11,917 nucleotides of DNA from Anaerolineales bacterium (GTDB lineage: Bacteria; Chloroflexota; Anaerolineae; Anaerolineales; VGOW01): the NCBI GenBank assembly GCA_919901875.1, contig CAKKQG010000001.1:1-11917 (forward strand). Reading direction: 5' to 3'. The notes below the pieces were generated by a model. That model ran no database searches and had not been told where the DNA came from. It was given only the letters and a program-made list of their open reading frames with translations. The position numbers and the translations under genes are program-made. Shown piece by piece: positions 2,732-10,064 of this stretch; within the stretch, counting starts at the first letter, position 1; each line of letters opens with the position of its first letter.

Positions 2732-4945
2732 TTATTTGGGTAACCCAAACCTCAACAACCTCACCGAGAATTTAAATTCACCGACCCACAGATACGTGCC
2801 GTCAAAGTTCATATCGCTCGGCCAATATAATTTGTCGCGCCCAATTTCGGGGACGGTCTCGCTGAGATCGGTTGCCCCTAAGATCAACGTGGGGTTTTTG
2901 CCGTTGGCGGCGTCAGCGACAGAATCCCAGCCTAACACGCGCCCGTTCACGGTGTCAGCGACCAACAGCCGTTCACCGATTGTGATTGCGCTGCCCAGCA
3001 TGTTGAAGCGCGTTTGCGAATTTCCTTGCACCGTCATCGGCTGGGCGTTGGCGCTCAGCTCAGCGACTTTGTAAATCTTTACTGTCTTCTCGCTGACGAG
3101 CGTGAGATAGTTGCCATCGCTTTTGATGGACGAGATCGGCGTATTGAGATTCAAAGTGAAAGACGGATTGGCAAGCGTGGTGGGAAGCCCTTGCCACACA
3201 TACACTTTGCCCGATGTGTCGGCGAGATAAAAGTATTTATCGTCGAGCGCGACGCTGCCCGTATGTTTTTTAATGGCAGCGGCGCTGATTGTGAGATCGG
3301 GTTTCTCGCCATTGAGCGGTAATTTTTTCCACACAAAGATGTTTTCGCCGCCGACGATTAACGTTTCTTTCCACAGCGTGAGGCTACCTACGTTGCCCGG
3401 CTGAGGCATCGTGTATACAAAATCGGGATAGGCGTTGCTCTGGTTGGGCAACGACTTCCACACGTAGAGCTTGCGATCAAAATCGGAGATGACAAACAGA
3501 CTCTTGCCATTCGAGGCTGAGCGCGGGTTGGTGATGATGAAGTTTTGCTCGAGCGTGTTCACACACAACTCGCTCGCGCCGATCACGAAATCATGTTTCT
3601 GATCGCTACGTGTAGGCACTAAGTTATAAACAATAATTTTGTTAGCATTACCCTCAACGATATAAACGCGCCCGCCTGCCACTGCCACACCAAGCGAGTC
3701 GCCGATACGCACGCCGCTGGTTTTTACATCCACATCTGGTTTTTGGTCGAGCGACTTGGGGAACGAATTCCAAATGGCAAAACCGTCGCCCACTGCTAAA
3801 AATTTACCGTCACTGGTGAACGTGCCGCCGACGAAAGTGCGGTCAGTATTCACAAAAGTTTCTTTGCCGTCGCGCGTGGTCGGCAGGGTATTCCAATAAA
3901 ACGTGCCACGCGATGTGACGGTATTGGCGTCGTATTCGGGGCTGCCGGGTTTGGGCTGGATCTTCACGTTGTGATCCCATACCATCATGTTCTTGCCATC
4001 GCTGGCAATATAACGCGGCGTGCCGAAGAATCGATTCTTTATAACGAGATCGGGCGCGTCACTACTTTTCGTCGGAAACTTATTCCAGATCAATAACCCG
4101 CTTGCGCCTTGCGTGCTGGCGACAATTAATTTCTCGCCATCTGTCCACACACCCCAGGGCCAATTGAGGTTTTCTTTGAGTGTTGTCCCTAGCTCGGGGA
4201 AGTTGAAGGCGAAGTCTGCCGCTTGCCCGTTCTGGGTAGGGAAGCTCGACCAAACTAAAATACGTTGGTTTACGGTGTCGGCGACAACTACTTTGTTTTT
4301 TGTCACGCTCACCGCCGAAGGCCAGTTCATGCCGTTCAACTCTTTGCCAGGATTGTTGTGCGTGAAGTCTGTTTGCCCCAATACTATATCGGGTGCGGTG
4401 TTGCCGCTCGGCGCAGTGTTCCAAATCAGCACGCGGTTGTTGTTGCGATCCACTAACAACAACCGTGTGCCGTCGCTGGCGATGCCCGATGGATGATTGA
4501 ACAACAACCCGCCACCCGTGTTGTCAAAATCAATCGCCGAGAGAACGATGTCGGCGCTCTGCCCGGTGGTGAAAAATTTGTTAGATGTGTAAGTAGTCGC
4601 CGTCGCGTATTTGGCATTCGTGCTTTGCACACTCAACTGTGTGTTGAGATTGAATTTGCCGCACACATCCACGACGTTTTGATTCGGATTTTGGGGCTGG
4701 GCTTTTGGATCAGGGGCTGCCGCCGTTGGCTGTGCCACCGTAGAGGCAGGTGAGGCCTTCGCGGCAGTGGCGGCTTGGGTCGGCGGTGAGGCTATCACCG
4801 TTGGCGCGTTAGCGAACTCAGCCGCGCCGCACGCGCTCAATAAAATCCCCAACACGATCAAGGCGAGTGCAGACTTCCGAAGTTTTCGCGGTTTGTGCGA
4901 CTTCGGAAGTCTTGTGACGAGGTTGAGAAAGAATTTTGTTTTCAT
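2732..4945 (-). CDS. Lipoprotein with about twelve NHL-like beta-propeller repeats
   Basis: This 737-residue protein is probably exported and lipid-anchored. The signal peptide ends in the lipobox LLSAC with Cys39, followed by an Ala/Pro/Thr/Gln-rich linker to about residue 90. From about 130 to the end the pattern hydrophobic-VAD-x-x-N-R-hydrophobic-W-x-x-x-P recurs about twelve times. The aromatic positions are near residues 175, 232, 287, 351, 392, 440, 496, 539, 584, 625, 673 and a final degenerate one near 732. Twelve repeats would fit two six-bladed propellers; this is inference. AAAGGAG 7 nt before the ATG at 4945 decides this start over the in-frame ATG at 4969. Residues 12-25 are encoded by an inserted palindrome. 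A binding or scaffold role on the cell surface is likely; the ligand is unknown. It precedes the membrane kinase and could feed it a signal. Confidence 0.9.
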   Translation of the reverse strand: MKTKFFLNLVTRLPKSHKPRKLRKSALALIVLGILLSACGAAEFANAPTVIASPPTQAATAAKASPASTVAQPTAAAPDPKAQPQNPNQNVVDVCGKFNLNTQLSVQSTNAKYATATTYTSNKFFTTGQSADIVLSAIDFDNTGGGLLFNHPSGIASDGTRLLLVDRNNNRVLIWNTAPSGNTAPDIVLGQTDFTHNNPGKELNGMNWPSAVSVTKNKVVVADTVNQRILVWSSFPTQNGQAADFAFNFPELGTTLKENLNWPWGVWTDGEKLIVASTQGASGLLIWNKFPTKSSDAPDLVIKNRFFGTPRYIASDGKNMMVWDHNVKIQPKPGSPEYDANTVTSRGTFYWNTLPTTRDGKETFVNTDRTFVGGTFTSDGKFLAVGDGFAIWNSFPKSLDQKPDVDVKTSGVRIGDSLGVAVAGGRVYIVEGNANKIIVYNLVPTRSDQKHDFVIGASELCVNTLEQNFIITNPRSASNGKSLFVISDFDRKLYVWKSLPNQSNAYPDFVYTMPQPGNVGSLTLWKETLIVGGENIFVWKKLPLNGEKPDLTISAAAIKKHTGSVALDDKYFYLADTSGKVYVWQGLPTTLANPSFTLNLNTPISSIKSDGNYLTLVSEKTVKIYKVAELSANAQPMTVQGNSQTRFNMLGSAITIGERLLVADTVNGRVLGWDSVADAANGKNPTLILGATDLSETVPEIGRDKLYWPSDMNFDGTYLWVGEFKFSVRLLRFGLPK
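4871..4912. repeat. 42-bp palindromic repeat inside the lipoprotein signal-peptide coding region
   Basis: agacttccgaagt (4871-4883) is the exact reverse complement of acttcggaagtct (4900-4912), leaving a 16-nt centre. The unit is exactly 14 codons and in phase with the gene, encoding residues 12-25 (RLPKSHKPRKLRKS). A second copy of the same arm sequence occurs at 5056-5088. Confidence 0.93.
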
Positions 4946-5055: not shown

Positions 5056-5088
5056 AGACTTCCGAAGTCTTAGAGACTTCGGAAGTCT
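5056..5088. repeat. Palindromic repeat over the 3' end of the NtrC-type gene
   Basis: The arms at 5056-5070 (agacttccgaagtct) and 5074-5088 are exact reverse complements, giving a 15-bp stem with a 3-nt loop. The arm is the same as in the palindrome at 4871-4912. The activator stop codon (5070-5072) falls at the loop and its last five residues (DFRSL) are encoded by the repeat. On the minus strand the stem is not followed by a T-run, so it is not a classic intrinsic terminator, although it could protect a 3' end. Confidence 0.93.
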
Positions 5089-6254
5089 GGTGGTTGAGTG
5101 ACTTCGTTTGGCAAATGCCCGATCTGAATTTCGCTGTCGTCGCAAAACAACATCCCGTTCTCAATGGCGCTGCGTAGTTGGCGGATGTTGCCGGGCCAGT
5201 GATAGGCCTGCAGCGCTTCAAGCGCGCGCGGATGAATGGACGTGACGTGCTTGCCCATCTCACTATTAAATTTTTTGATGAACGCGCCCGCCAGCGTGGG
5301 GACGTCCTCACGGCGATCACGCAGGGGCGGCAGTTCAATGGTGATCACTTTCAAGCGCCAATATAAATCTTCGCGGAAGTTTCCGGCTTCGATCATCTTG
5401 GGCAGATTACGATTCGATGCGGAGATCAATCTCACGTCCGTTTTGATCAAGGTGGTGCCGCCGACTCTGCGAATAGCTTTTTCCTCGATTGCCCTTAAGA
5501 GCTTTGCTTGCAAGTCGGGCTTCATGCTGGCGATCTCATCCAAGAACAGCGTGCCGTCTTCTGCCACTTCGATCAACCCCTCTTTGCGTTTGGTTGCGCC
5601 GGTGAAGGCTTGCGCCTCGTGACCGAAGAGTTCGCTTTCCAAAAGTTGGTCAGGCAGGGCGGCGCAGTTGATCGCAATAAACGGTTTATCACGGCGCGGG
5701 CTAAGTTGATGGACGGCATTGGCGATCACTTCTTTGCCAGTGCCGCTCTCGCCGCAGAGCAACACGCTTGCCTGAGTCGGTGCGGCGCGTTCAACGATCT
5801 CGGCAACCCGCTTCATGGCAGGCGTGTCGCCGACGACCCAGTCATATTCCGCGCGGCGGGCTTGGCGTAAATGGGCGAGTTCGCGCCGCAGGGCAACACC
5901 TTGCGAGGCGCGTTTCAATGCTTTGAGCATACGCGGCATTTGAATCGGCTTGGTTAAAAAATCCTGCGCTCCGGTTTGCATCGCCTCAACCGCCATATCA
6001 ATATCGCCAAAACTTGTCATCACGATCACCGGCAGCCCGGGTTGTTCTTGGGCTAAACGCTCCAACAACAAAAATCCGTTGCCGTCGGGCAGCATCACAT
6101 CGAGCAGAACAATATCGGCTTCGCCGCGATCAATTTGGGCATGGGCGGAAGCGATGCTCTCCGCTTCGAGCGTGGCGTATCCTTGATCGGCAAGAAACTC
6201 TTTGATGAAGGAGCGGGGAGTGGGTTCGTCGTCAACGATAAGGACAGTGAGCAT
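5070..6254 (-). CDS. NtrC-type sigma-54 activator lacking the DNA-binding domain
   Basis: The 394-residue protein has a receiver domain (about 2-118) with Asp8-Asp9, phospho-acceptor Asp52, Thr80 and Lys102. The AAA+ domain (about 138-375) follows. Walker A is GESGTGKE (168-175) and Walker B TLFLDE (235-240). The sigma-54 contact loop is at 215-220, reading QAFTGA instead of GAFTGA. The arginine-finger region is FREDLYWRL (293-301) and sensor II WPGNIRQL (353-360). Family members usually run to about 450-480 residues with a Fis-type HTH; here the protein stops about 20 residues after the AAA+ region, within a palindromic repeat. It should hydrolyse ATP to remodel sigma-54 holoenzyme but cannot bind enhancers by itself. 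The upstream kinase (stop 55 nt away) is the evident partner. The start is the only ATG directly before the receiver core; no Shine-Dalgarno is visible because a heptad array fills the leader. Confidence 0.95.
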   Translation of the reverse strand: MLTVLIVDDEPTPRSFIKEFLADQGYATLEAESIASAHAQIDRGEADIVLLDVMLPDGNGFLLLERLAQEQPGLPVIVMTSFGDIDMAVEAMQTGAQDFLTKPIQMPRMLKALKRASQGVALRRELAHLRQARRAEYDWVVGDTPAMKRVAEIVERAAPTQASVLLCGESGTGKEVIANAVHQLSPRRDKPFIAINCAALPDQLLESELFGHEAQAFTGATKRKEGLIEVAEDGTLFLDEIASMKPDLQAKLLRAIEEKAIRRVGGTTLIKTDVRLISASNRNLPKMIEAGNFREDLYWRLKVITIELPPLRDRREDVPTLAGAFIKKFNSEMGKHVTSIHPRALEALQAYHWPGNIRQLRSAIENGMLFCDDSEIQIGHLPNEVTQPPDFRSL

Positions 6255-6256
6255 AG

Positions 6257-6319
6257 TAGTGCATAGTGAACAGTGATCAGTAATCAGTAAGCGCGCTACT
6301 GATTACTGATTACTGTTTA
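6257..6319. repeat. Heptanucleotide array 2 with internal 19-bp inverted repeat
   Basis: Nine 7-bp units run in phase: tagtgca, tagtgaa, cagtgat, cagtaat, cagtaag, cgcgcta, ctgatta, ctgatta, ctgttta. The right half is the inverse of the left: 6271-6289 pairs with 6297-6315 over 19 bp with one mismatch and a 7-nt loop. The array fills the gap between the kinase and activator genes, includes the kinase stop codon (6310-6312) and ends 2 nt short of the activator ATG. Confidence 0.93.
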
Positions 6320-8307
6320 CTTTCCGCAATGGGTAGAAAAATATGAAACGCCGTCCCGATCCCGGAAAAGCTTTCGACAAAGATCGAACCCTTGTGGGCG
6401 TTGACGATGCGTTTGGTGATAGCCAGACCGAGCCCGGTGCCGTCGGCTTTGGTGGTGATGAATGGATCGAAGATGCGCTGCTGTATCTCGATTGGGATGC
6501 CGTGTCCGGTATCGCTGAAGATCAATTCAACAAAATTGCCGCGCGGCGTTTGGGCGTGCGCTGCCTTGAAGCATTTAATGGATAGCGTGCCATTCGTGCC
6601 AATGGCATCTACGGCGTTGACGATCAGATTCGTGAAGACCTGATCCATCTGATTTAAATCCGCCATCACTTGCGGCGTAGTCGGATCGATCTCTTTTTCA
6701 AGTTGGATGTTGAGTTTCGCCAGACGCGGCGCCCAACGGATGAGAGTCCGCGTGAGTAATGGAACGAGGGACGTTTGTTGGTAGTTGGCTTCGGACGATT
6801 TGACAGCCAGCAAAACATTATTGACAAGTTGATCGATCCGCAGGACTTCTGCTTGCATCATGCCCACGCGCTCGGCAAGCGGATCGGGCGGAAGAAATTT
6901 TGTGGCGAACAAACCAAGCCCGGTGGAGATTCCGTTAAGCGGGTTTCGCACATCGTGGGCGAAGATGGCTGAAACGTCGCCAAGCCAAGCGCGCCGTTCC
7001 AGATGATCGCTTTGTGTCTGGAAAAATTTTTGCTGGCGGCGATCCGTAATGACGATCAGCCCACCGATGAAGGTGTTGCCGCGACTCATCAACGGCGCGG
7101 CGCGGATGAACGCGGCAAGGCTGTCCCCATCGCGCCGAATCAGATCGGTTTCTACGCCGTCCCAACGCGCGCCGCGTTTAAGGGTCTCAATTAGCTGTGA
7201 GGCGAGGGGCTGCGAAGCGACCAGCACATCTTCAAGCGGTTCATTCACCATATCGTTGAGATGAAAACCTAACAGCGTCTCTGCCGCCGAATTAAGATCG
7301 ACGACGCGCCCCATAGCATTGATCCGCAAAATGCCTTCGCTGGTTTGACTCATGATCGCTTCTAGCTGTTGGCTCACTTCAGAGGCGTAGGCTTCAGTTT
7401 CGTTAGTTGTCTGCGCCCGCCGCAGTTGAAGCAGCAGGGCGGAAAAATAGTGCGCGGCAACGGCGGTCAGCGCCGGGACATCCGGCGGCTGGTTGTCTGA
7501 TTCGGTATACATCACGACAAATAATCCCAACAGCGTAGAGCGATCTGAGATGGCGTGAGCGTGGAGGGCGGCAAAGTTTCCGGCGCGTGCCGCGCGTGCC
7601 AGAGCCGAAGCAGGGCGCTCACCCAAGCGCCAACTGAACGCCGCCGATTTCAGGGCGGGATCATCGGCAGCAATGAGTGATGGAAATTTTGAGGGGAAGT
7701 TGATCGCTCGCCCGATGTTGAAACCGGGTGGATTTATGGAACGCCAGTAAAGCATGACGCTCTCCGCGCCGAGCATTTGACGGGATACCCCCAGCGTTTG
7801 TTCAATGAAGTCGTCTGACACGGCGTGAGGCAACGCTTCCATCATCTCGCTAAGCGCGGCGATGGAAACGTGATGGCGATTGAGGCTTTGAGTGGGGATG
7901 CGTTGGGTATATTCGCGCATGAGGATCATCACAAAATCCTCGTCGCCGCGAGTGCAGCTGCTGAGGCGTATGTCTACCGGAATCAAAACGCCACTGCGGG
8001 CGCGGAACAAAATGTTTCGCAACGAGTAATTGACTCCGGCTTCTACGTTGCAAATGATCTTCAGGATTTCTGCCGATTGGTCGGGAGAGAAAATATCTAC
8101 AAGATGAAGCGTATTGAATTCGGCGCGCGAATAGCCGCTAAAGGCAATCGCTTTGTCGTTGGTATAGAAGAAAGCGCCCGAAATGGGTTTAACTAAAAAG
8201 AGCGCGTCAACAAGTTCTTCGACGATGTCCCGGTAACGCTCGTCGTTTTGTTGAGCGCGAAAATTGTTCAGCAGATCGAGCGGTGATGTTTTACGTGTGT
8301 AAGACAA
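6310..8307 (-). CDS. Cytosolic PAS-GAF-PAS histidine kinase, partner of the sigma-54 activator
   Basis: The 665-residue protein has no membrane segment. PAS 1 is at about 25-135, a GAF-like domain at about 150-298, PAS 2 at about 312-425 and the HisKA helix at about 435-505, with His451 in FAHDVRNPLNG. The ATPase domain (about 515-662) shows N-box NLIVNAVDAIG (560-570), DTGHGIP (599-605), IFDPFITTK (612-620) and GTGLGLAI (623-630). This is the NtrB/AtoS class that phosphorylates NtrC-type regulators, and such a regulator gene follows 55 nt later. The start is uncertain: no ATG is available near the N-terminus, the frame closes upstream with TGA, and TTG at 8307 is the best candidate, without a visible Shine-Dalgarno. 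A palindromic element begins 9 nt upstream. The PAS and GAF domains suggest sensing of a small cytoplasmic ligand or redox state; the signal cannot be named. Confidence 0.93.
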   Translation of the reverse strand: MSYTRKTSPLDLLNNFRAQQNDERYRDIVEELVDALFLVKPISGAFFYTNDKAIAFSGYSRAEFNTLHLVDIFSPDQSAEILKIICNVEAGVNYSLRNILFRARSGVLIPVDIRLSSCTRGDEDFVMILMREYTQRIPTQSLNRHHVSIAALSEMMEALPHAVSDDFIEQTLGVSRQMLGAESVMLYWRSINPPGFNIGRAINFPSKFPSLIAADDPALKSAAFSWRLGERPASALARAARAGNFAALHAHAISDRSTLLGLFVVMYTESDNQPPDVPALTAVAAHYFSALLLQLRRAQTTNETEAYASEVSQQLEAIMSQTSEGILRINAMGRVVDLNSAAETLLGFHLNDMVNEPLEDVLVASQPLASQLIETLKRGARWDGVETDLIRRDGDSLAAFIRAAPLMSRGNTFIGGLIVITDRRQQKFFQTQSDHLERRAWLGDVSAIFAHDVRNPLNGISTGLGLFATKFLPPDPLAERVGMMQAEVLRIDQLVNNVLLAVKSSEANYQQTSLVPLLTRTLIRWAPRLAKLNIQLEKEIDPTTPQVMADLNQMDQVFTNLIVNAVDAIGTNGTLSIKCFKAAHAQTPRGNFVELIFSDTGHGIPIEIQQRIFDPFITTKADGTGLGLAITKRIVNAHKGSIFVESFSGIGTAFHIFLPIAESKQ

Positions 8308-8316
8308 GATGATTTC

Positions 8317-8523
8317 ATCACGAATGACTCGAATGGGCGAATATCACGAATGTTTTTTAAAATCGCAACTGCTCAGGCGTCATTGCGAGGAGCGTTCTGT
8401 GCGACGAAGCAATCTCGGTCGCGCCTTGAGATTGCTTCGCAAAGTGCGCTCGCAATGACGGAGTGGCTGGGTTACTTTTTATCGCTCTATTCGTTAAATT
8501 CGTATATTCGAGTCATTCGTGAT
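8317..8523. mobile_element. 207-bp MITE-like nested inverted-repeat element
   Basis: Outer arms at 8317-8351 and 8489-8523 are inverted repeats matching at 30 of 35 positions, with the outermost 18 bp perfect. Each arm is itself built of short attcg-starting units of 8-9 bp. Inside is a second palindrome: 8378-8389 (cgtcattgcgag) pairs with 8449-8460, and 8405-8416 (cgaagcaatctc) pairs with 8428-8439. The inner part matches the widespread GTCATTGCGAG/GAAGCAATCTC type of bacterial palindromic repeat, recognised from memory. It encodes no protein. It fills most of the 288 nt between rpoN and the kinase. No target duplication is evident. Confidence 0.85.
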
Positions 8524-8595
8524 TAGAGTGCGTAAGTCCGGTTCGATTTGGTTTCGCGTATGCAATAAAAACTCAAAACAAAAACAACAAACAAA
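8524..8595. other. Short intergenic remainder downstream of rpoN
   Basis: No gene is seen. Minus-strand sequence just after the rpoN stop is strongly T-rich (A-rich on the plus strand at about 8565-8595) with no hairpin directly before it. A weak terminator role is possible but not supported by structure. Confidence 0.4.
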
Positions 8596-10014
8596 TCAAG
8601 AAAGAAAAACTTCGCGCCCACGCAAACTTGCCGGTAAAATTCCAAGCATCTGACGATACTTCGCCACCGTGCGCCGCGCAACTTTATAACCACGCGGTTT
8701 CAACATCTCGGCGATCTTGGTGTCGGAAAGCGGGGCGGTGCGCTGTTCACTTTTGATAATTGTTTGCACTGCGTCACGCACGGCGAGAGAACGATCAAAA
8801 AACATCGAGAGCGGCACCATGCGACCATTGGGCAGGGCGGCGCACTTGTTGGCAACTGCGCGCGAGATAGTTGATTCGTGAAGTTCCAATCGCTGCGCCA
8901 ACGTCGCCCGAGTCAGCGGTTTAAGATCAGCGTCGCTGCCCAGAATAAATGCCTTCTGCTCTATCGTCATGATCTCGGCTAAACGCTTCATGGTGTTGTT
9001 GCGTTGCTGCACGCACTTGGTAAGCAATGAAGCGCGATCAATATGATTTGCCCAATTCGACTTTTCATCTTCCGAAAGCAGATTGAGACTGGCGCGAATT
9101 TCAGGATCAACGCGCAACGTCCCGCTCATGCCGCTAAACACTTCTACCAAAAGCGGTCCACCCGGTCGCGGGTTATGGCTCATCACAATATCAGGCTCGT
9201 AAAAAACAGATCGGGCGAGAGGAGTAACTCCGCGCCCCGAATCTTGCCAAGCCCGCCCCGGATACGGCGTGAGGTTATGGTGAATAAACAGCGCCGCTTC
9301 TTGTGCCGCCGCCAACGATGCCCGTGCGCCACGGGCAATCGCCACATAATTTCGTTTGATTAAATATTCCCAATAGTTTGAAATAATTTGCAACACTAAA
9401 GGATGCGTCACACCGTTTTCACTCAACACTTCCACTTGCACTAGCAGACTCTCACGAAGATCGCGCGTGGCAACGCCCACCGGATCACACCGTTGAATCA
9501 GTTTCAAGACGCGCTCCACGCTCTCCAGCGAGACACGCAGACTTAGTGCGATGTCGGCCGGATGATCCAACAACAAGCCGCGATCATCAAGGCGTTCCAA
9601 GATGTTGATCGCAATACGTTGTTCGTCGGCGTTGGTGGCGCAAGCAACTTGCCTCAGCAAATGTTCGGCGAGTGTTTCGGTTTGCGGCACACGCTCTGCC
9701 ATCGGCGAATCATCGCTGTCCTCTGCCGCACCGCGCATATTCGGAAGACGCGGCGAAAGAAAAACAATCGGGCAATCACCAGAATCAAGTTGACGTTTGG
9801 CGAGACAGCTCGGGCAGGGCAGGGCGCGGAGTCGGCGACCACATTCGGGGCAGCGAATTTCATCAAGCTGCTGCAAGGCGGGATTCGTTTGCAGTTCGCG
9901 CGTGATCTCATCTTCCAACTCGCTTGTGTTCATCTCAAGCAAGCGCATGGTTTGGGCAAGGCTGGCAGTGGCTTGGGCGCGCTGTTCGGTGGATTGAGAA
10001 AGGAACATTGGCAT
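8596..10014 (-). CDS. rpoN: RNA polymerase sigma-54 factor
   Basis: With the start chosen here the protein has 472 residues, the normal length for RpoN. Region I (about 1-52) is the Gln/Leu-rich activator-interacting segment with QTMRLLEMNTSELEDEI. A core-binding region follows (about 110-320, including PYPGRAWQ). The HTH lies at about 367-389 (LELHESTISRAVANK). The RpoN box ARRTVAKYR is intact at 446-454 and recognises the -24 element. Region II holds an unusual Cys-x2-Cys-x8-Cys-x2-Cys cluster (Cys55, 58, 67, 70) that looks like a small zinc ribbon. The frame is open to a GTG at 10062, but the ATG at 10014 fits region I better and lies just after a sigma-54-like promoter and a sigma-70-like one. 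It directs core polymerase to -24/-12 promoters that need ATP-driven activation; a candidate activator is encoded two genes downstream. Confidence 0.96.
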   Translation of the reverse strand: MPMFLSQSTEQRAQATASLAQTMRLLEMNTSELEDEITRELQTNPALQQLDEIRCPECGRRLRALPCPSCLAKRQLDSGDCPIVFLSPRLPNMRGAAEDSDDSPMAERVPQTETLAEHLLRQVACATNADEQRIAINILERLDDRGLLLDHPADIALSLRVSLESVERVLKLIQRCDPVGVATRDLRESLLVQVEVLSENGVTHPLVLQIISNYWEYLIKRNYVAIARGARASLAAAQEAALFIHHNLTPYPGRAWQDSGRGVTPLARSVFYEPDIVMSHNPRPGGPLLVEVFSGMSGTLRVDPEIRASLNLLSEDEKSNWANHIDRASLLTKCVQQRNNTMKRLAEIMTIEQKAFILGSDADLKPLTRATLAQRLELHESTISRAVANKCAALPNGRMVPLSMFFDRSLAVRDAVQTIIKSEQRTAPLSDTKIAEMLKPRGYKVARRTVAKYRQMLGILPASLRGREVFLS

Positions 10015-10018
10015 GATC

Positions 10019-10047
10019 AGTGTAATTGCAAGAACCATGCCAGTCAA
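10019..10047 (-). promoter_or_regulatory. Sigma-70-like promoter of rpoN overlapping the sigma-54 site
   Basis: TTGACT (10047-10042) and TACACT (10024-10019) are 17 nt apart on the minus strand. The -10 ends 4 nt before the ATG at 10014, so the transcript would be leaderless or nearly so. The two promoter elements share most of their bases, which implies competition between holoenzymes. Confidence 0.5.
10027..10042 (-). promoter_or_regulatory. Sigma-54 type -24/-12 promoter in front of rpoN
   Basis: The minus strand reads TGGCATG, four bases, then TTGCA, against the known consensus TGGCACG-N4-TTGCW. Only one specified base differs, and the GG and GC doublets are exactly 10 nt apart. With the usual offset the transcript would start near 10016, 2 nt before the ATG at 10014. 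Confidence 0.65.
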
Positions 10048-10049
10048 GA

Positions 10050-10058
10050 TGATAAAAT
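10050..10058 (+). promoter_or_regulatory. Extended -10 promoter of the methyltransferase gene
   Basis: The plus strand reads TGATAAAAT, a TGn motif plus TAAAAT (5 of 6 to TATAAT). It ends 6 nt before the ATG at 10065, and no Shine-Dalgarno or properly spaced -35 is seen. A leaderless message is predicted. The site lies within the 50-bp divergent region shared with rpoN. Confidence 0.5.
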
Positions 10059-10064
10059 ACACTC

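Follow-up and report, generated by a model that had tools for sequence, protein, structure and literature searches.

Short in-frame palindromes in Chloroflexota genes: a copy in a lipoprotein signal and its altered counterparts in a sister species

A 42-bp palindrome lies in frame within the signal peptide of a lipoprotein gene in the window (the whole stretch of 11,917 nucleotides analysed here). We put at about 0.7 the probability that this insert is one copy of a non-autonomous palindromic cassette, dispersed in this groundwater genus of Chloroflexota, and that it entered the lipoprotein gene and was then exchanged or remodelled in place. The cassette is dispersed and its arms covary. Its copies stand in frame within proteins or at their ends, and one occupies a lipoprotein n-region. 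In a sister species the orthologous site usually holds a palindrome too, though its centre, its length or its whole family often differs. Our working reading is of a coding palindrome like the Rickettsia palindromic elements (RPEs), shorter and in another phylum, that would belong to a multi-family set exchanged at fixed sites.

The palindrome in the lipoprotein signal

The features concerned, and what each was called from, are as follows.

2732..4945, minus strand: lipoprotein gene with NHL repeats (Pfam PF01436); sequence, ORF and Pfam match
4829..4945, minus strand: signal peptide through the lipobox cysteine, MKTKFFLNLVT + 14 element residues + ALALIVLGILLSA + C; sequence and hydropathy
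4871..4912, minus strand: 42-bp family-A palindrome, read in frame as RLPKSHKPRKLRKS; sequence, fold and other genomic copies
5056..5088, no strand assigned: 33-bp family-A palindrome with 15-bp arms and loop TAG/CTA; sequence, fold and sister comparison
5070..6254, minus strand: NtrC-like response regulator gene, its last codons and stop inside the 33-bp element; ORF, Pfam and sequence

The lipoprotein begins MKTKFFLNLVT-RLPKSHKPRKLRKS-ALALIVLGILLSAC, and the middle 14 residues are exactly the 42 bp at 4871-4912. An earlier note on this DNA had described a palindrome of 14 codons inside a lipoprotein signal, with eight basic residues among the 14; its coordinates, frame, residues and count are all correct. 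An AAAGGAG ribosome site stands upstream of the ATG at 4945, and the lipobox LSAC places a cysteine after the h-region (both read directly from the sequence), as a lipoprotein signal peptide should have. The best 12-residue hydropathy of the signal is 2.88 with the element and 2.93 with its flanks joined. Pairing is perfect only in the outer 13 bp of each arm, the 16-nt centre adding four pairs, and the RNA fold of 4871-4912 reaches -22.7 kcal/mol, versus -6.8 +/- 2.4 for shuffled versions, none of 200 being as good.

The same arm had been reported at the end of a neighbouring gene, where we find a perfect hairpin (15-bp arms, 3-nt loop) at 5056-5088. This copy overlaps the NtrC-like gene at 5070-6254 and supplies its stop codon, and in the sister species its loop is inverted, reading as the reverse complement (TAG versus CTA). 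The genes for the NtrC-like regulator, a PAS histidine kinase and a sigma-54 factor are adjacent at 5070-10062 of the window, in a Chloroflexota genome.

Other repeats are also present in the window. Two CCCCTCTCC...GGAGAGGGG palindromes lie at 2616-2718, at the upstream end of a histidine kinase ORF (1094-2704). Between the NtrC-like and kinase genes there is a CAGTAATCAGTAA-type inverted repeat (6262-6331), with a different palindrome there in the sister, and at 8317-8523 a long ATTCGTGAT inverted repeat encloses a CGTCATTGCGAG...GAAGCAATCTC element, most of which is absent from the sister. An AATCTCC tandem repeat occupies positions 1-77.

Distribution of family A and its coding copies

A family-A element consists of the 15-bp half-site AGACTTCSGAAGTCT, itself near-palindromic, in two inverted copies that are separated by 3 bp in the 33-bp form and by 12 bp in the 42-bp form. 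Both standard forms are multiples of three and usually free of stops. With the pattern CTTCCGAAG N6-36 CTTCGGAAG we found 38 matches in the window's own MAG (G000; 2.63 Mb, 484 contigs, 64% complete) and 86 in a same-genus sister MAG (G003; about 480 contigs), one nested pair being counted twice in the latter; the same pattern reversed, used as a control, gave none. The arm is thus dispersed rather than gene-specific, as had been proposed, and the palindrome, far from being absent elsewhere in the genome, is abundant there. A longer pattern had at least one match in 104 of 400 genomes drawn from the order, with 1 to 81 where present. Rfam gave nothing at gathering scores in the window.

Arm covariation is seen as 39 compensatory double-change cells versus 8 single-sided ones among 74 copies of the 33-bp form, in counts that ignore shared ancestry among copies, which were collected at no more than one mismatch per half-site. 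The 3-bp centre of this form is of 20 types with strands merged; the 42-bp centres are common to different loci. Within copies so collected, the inner bases of the near-palindromic half-site are almost invariant, as would be expected if a DNA-binding protein recognised the half-sites and selection preserved them around a neutral spacer. This we think very unlikely, given that palindromes with unrelated cores occupy the same site in the sister and that copies are placed inside unrelated protein genes.

Family A, which the earlier note had not set in this wider context, comes in two standard forms and is accompanied by many other palindrome families. A census (arms of 12 or more, loops of 20 or fewer, overlapping ones counted) gave 116 palindromes in 296 kb and 182 in 465 kb of the two MAGs, in stretches chosen mostly for carrying family A, and 0 in a single shuffle that preserved base composition within 100-bp blocks. 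The 33-bp frame ARA-N9-TYT-NNN-ARA-N9-TYT is common to many palindromes with different cores, examples being CTTCCGAAG (A), CCTCCGAGT (B), CCTTCAAGG (E), AACCCGTTT, CACCGAGTG, CCCGAAGGG and CCTCGCGGG, where the family letters A, B and E are assigned in this analysis.

Gene positions were taken from a crude home-made caller (hexamer score) run on the fetched stretches of both genomes. Genes contained 23 of 107 family-A copies but 83.5% of 4000 random positions; 74 copies were intergenic, 5 fell at 3′ ends and 5 at contig edges. Family A therefore avoids genes, and its coding copies are a minority. Copies between convergent genes numbered 21 of 107, versus 1% of random positions, and have the most pronounced flanks, A-rich on the 5′ side (3.67 A per 8 nt) and T-rich on the 3′ side (3.90 T per 8 nt). 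The T-rich 3′ flanks are found at intergenic copies and are weaker at in-gene ones (1.83 A and 1.83 T per 8 nt); termination itself is a prediction. This distribution, including the 74 intergenic copies, would suit hairpins of the transcription-terminator or REP type that selection or spreading had placed at gene ends, with the coding copies as spill-over, an account compatible with our main reading, to which we give somewhat less than an even chance. It must accommodate about a fifth of copies lying in frame inside genes, where a terminator would be harmful, and, in its REP version, flanks that by eye have no constant GTAG/CGTC foot.

All 23 in-gene copies have a length divisible by three (versus 77 of 84 elsewhere), as is partly expected since the gene caller needs an open frame. 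After three ortholog pairs were merged by hand, 20 non-redundant in-gene copies remained. In-frame hosts with Pfam matches include rsmA, hemW, GH127 (two copies), amidase, rhamnosidase and O-antigen ligase; further hosts are a DUF4147/MOFRL glycerate-kinase-like protein, TPR proteins and PMT-type proteins (one PMT match below cut-off), and one (L121) had no Pfam match.

Frame follows context: the element is read in the TSEV frame in soluble proteins and in the RLPKS or DFRSL frame beside membrane segments. With sites sorted by hand into membrane-adjacent and other, the TSEV frame was used by one of six copies beside a strongly hydrophobic segment and by 13 of the 14 others (Fisher p 0.0022). 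The lipoprotein copy is read in the RLPKS frame adjoining the h-region and so matches this bias. The earlier note had tied placement to the export signal; a basic frame beside a hydrophobic segment does fit the context bias, but a special link with signal peptides is not supported, since by eye the lipoprotein copy is the only one of the 20 in-gene copies in a signal peptide and most copies (74/107) are outside genes altogether.

Compared with solved structures, the elements fall in poorly conserved stretches. Site 1 of GH127 looks like a clear addition, whereas for rsmA and hemW the solved structure has about as many residues at the element's place. Relatives of the amidase, hemW and rsmA proteins have a native variable stretch there, of similar or somewhat shorter length, and in amidase and hemW relatives without the element it spans about 8-12 residues, so the element may have replaced a native stretch. 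The coding copies in amidase, hemW and rsmA are not clean additions.

Turnover at fixed sites and possible routes of movement

At exactly the same position in the lipoprotein gene the sister species has the 33-bp form, with residues RLPKFLKLRKS. A 90%-identical ortholog is found in JACRLA010000349.1 ('Chloroflexi bacterium isolate NC_groundwater_1869...'). Among the N-termini of the best 13 of 120 listed matches, four orthologs could be aligned (the window, P0002, P0003 and P0004), with 14, 11, 14 and 11 residues at the site; the same 14 residues are thus not shared by all. P0003 is the other ortholog with 14, and P0002 has RSPSSLRTRRS, predicted to fit family B codon for codon, a fit that rests on back-translation as the P0002 DNA was not found. 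The earlier note had envisaged a 42-bp presence or absence among orthologs: the residues do differ, but none of these four N-termini (from the best 13 of 120 listed) is empty.

The same comparison was extended to both sets of palindromes. For 61 of 285 non-overlapping palindromes both flanks were located in the other set; two of these face runs of N, and the rest were merged by hand into 39 sites. Four of the 39 are identical and five are empty; in 15 the family is the same but its centre or length is altered (the spacer inversion at 5056 among them), and in another 15 the palindrome is a different one. Shared A/A sites are over-represented, since loci were chosen for carrying family A. About 10 of the 15 different-palindrome sites are clean by eye; the remainder are low-complexity, rearranged or large-loop, or have an extra element beside a shared one. 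The palindrome density in intergenic DNA of the sister is 0.148 per 60 bp, so that chance coincidence at the same site is a minor source. The earlier note had not remarked that a site's copy in the sister species is frequently a changed or a different one. An apparent empty sister site (L080 versus L140) was rejected, since it is a stretch of N in the MAG of the window, and a second comparison (L095 versus L115:5595) was likewise set aside.

Inside genes a different family was found in three cases: hemW (A versus the CCCCTCTCC family), a TPR gene (A versus B) and the O-antigen ligase (A versus ACACCTGACAGGT). The hemW site in the window's genome is occupied by a CCCCTCTCC palindrome similar to those at 2616-2718. 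At the protein level, in alignments of the best 18 of 120 listed matches for each, close amidase orthologs have family A, an E-like peptide or neither at the same place, and close hemW orthologs have A, half of A, the CCCCTCTCC family or none. In three more distant same-genus genomes (G001, G002, G004) the half-site pair was present in 0 of 15 aligned orthologs at six in-gene sites.

Both MAGs are fragmented (484 and about 480 contigs), and misassembly at short repeats could in principle mimic such differences. We consider an artefact of this kind highly improbable: flanks are collinear between the two genomes, the frames remain open, family A also occurs on phage contigs, and the representative of cluster P0001, which seems to include the window's own protein, differs from the window elsewhere yet has the same 14 residues. 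Elements of 33 or 42 bp are, moreover, shorter than a typical short read, which counts against such an origin.

Covarying arms and the inverted spacer at 5056 could both be produced by template switching in replication, a mechanism treated in PMC8604942 and PMC8794818. That each palindrome arose and is maintained locally in this way, with no mobility, is unlikely: dozens of unrelated loci have the same 15-mer arms, and different loci have 42-bp centres in common, which needs copying from locus to locus. Template switching may nonetheless explain remodelling in place. In our preferred reading, the dispersed cassette would have arrived in the lipoprotein gene ahead of the sister-species split, would have been tolerated since one frame yields a basic peptide compatible with an n-region, and would later have undergone exchange or remodelling at the same position. 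Template switching within the hairpin would account for homogenised arms and inverted spacers, and family replacement would need further copying or transposition activity.

A more specific process can be proposed tentatively, and we would sooner bet against it than for it: a 33-bp hairpin superfamily of the ARA-N9-TYT-NNN-ARA-N9-TYT frame, its cassettes having many interchangeable cores, would be actively swapped at fixed sites on the chromosome, genes included, by a trans-acting activity, with phages as possible carriers. If this is true, exchange rewrites protein loops and an export signal in one step.

Family A also occurs on four IMG/VR contigs. Ten proteins encoded on pieces of three of these contigs included six that matched PHROGs (major head, portal, terminase, tape measure, head closure and Mu Gam-like), by which we take these three to be tailed phages and phages to be possible carriers. 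The densest contig has nine palindromes in pooled pieces that total 28.6 kb and may overlap. Many family-A palindromes are seen on the IMG/VR contigs (L234-L241), several of them between ORFs and one just before the tape-measure gene. Plasmids were dropped as carriers after one 35-nt query had 0 matches in 72,556 plasmid records.

All five same-genus genomes have Y1 transposases. Of 13 Y1 loci, viewed with as much as 1.5 kb to either side (less where a contig ended), none is flanked by family A, one locus having a copy about 1.1 kb to one side. RAYT is thus not supported as the mobiliser of family A, and no other mobilising enzyme was found. No target-site duplication was recognised by eye at family-A copies, and orthologous-site comparisons yielded no clean empty family-A DNA allele. 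Elsewhere in the sister genome, GTAGGACAAG hairpins (L160, 1126-1152 and 1902-1928) flank a partial Y1 transposase match and are, with it, a possible REP/RAYT pair.

Comparison with known systems

In-frame coding palindromes are best known from Rickettsia. Family A adds much shorter ones from an unrelated, largely uncultured phylum, in sister species that catch the process half-way. Unrelated palindromes at the same protein place in close orthologs make spread and tolerance testable once more close relatives are sequenced. They also urge caution, since ortholog differences of 11-14 residues may stem from a change of cassette instead of point changes. Searches of open-access literature covered Chloroflexi and Anaerolineae palindromes, palindromes within genes, RPEs and template switching; among the papers listed, none describes anything like family A in its title or the start of its abstract, and a search with the half-site letters gave no match.

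Template switching, according to PMC8604942, homogenises the arms of inverted repeats and inverts their spacers, and the inversion at 5056 is of the kind described there; hairpin creation and maintenance are reported in PMC8794818. Such remodelling alone would not spread a single arm across dozens of loci. Tagged REPs, according to PMC3733652, are dispersed hairpins of 20-40 bp, mostly downstream of or between genes and some inside, with a GTAG/CGTC foot. Family A likewise consists of small dispersed hairpins, mostly intergenic with some in genes; unlike REP/RAYT it has no constant foot of this kind (flanks judged by eye) and flanks 0 of 13 Y1 transposase loci. PARCEL, according to PMC2996958, comprises 25-residue motifs in tandem arrays, encoded by dyad-symmetric DNA in membrane-targeted proteins including surface lipoproteins. 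Dyad-symmetric coding DNA is shared with family A; in contrast to the tandem arrays, the cassettes here are single.

The closest likeness drawn in the earlier note was to RPEs, which PMC10969869 and PMC3733652 describe as dispersed palindromes of several families, in frame in unrelated protein genes, with a size given as about 150 bp (PMC10969869). The likeness stands in that family A is a dispersed palindromic repeat family with copies in frame in the coding sequence of unrelated proteins, insertion versus loop replacement being ambiguous in rsmA, hemW and amidase. It does not extend to size, at 33 or 42 bp, so we do not class family A as an RPE, and we liken the two by description, not by sequence. 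Family A is also mostly intergenic and in another phylum, and, unlike in RPEs, the palindromes here differ in family between sister species at fixed sites.
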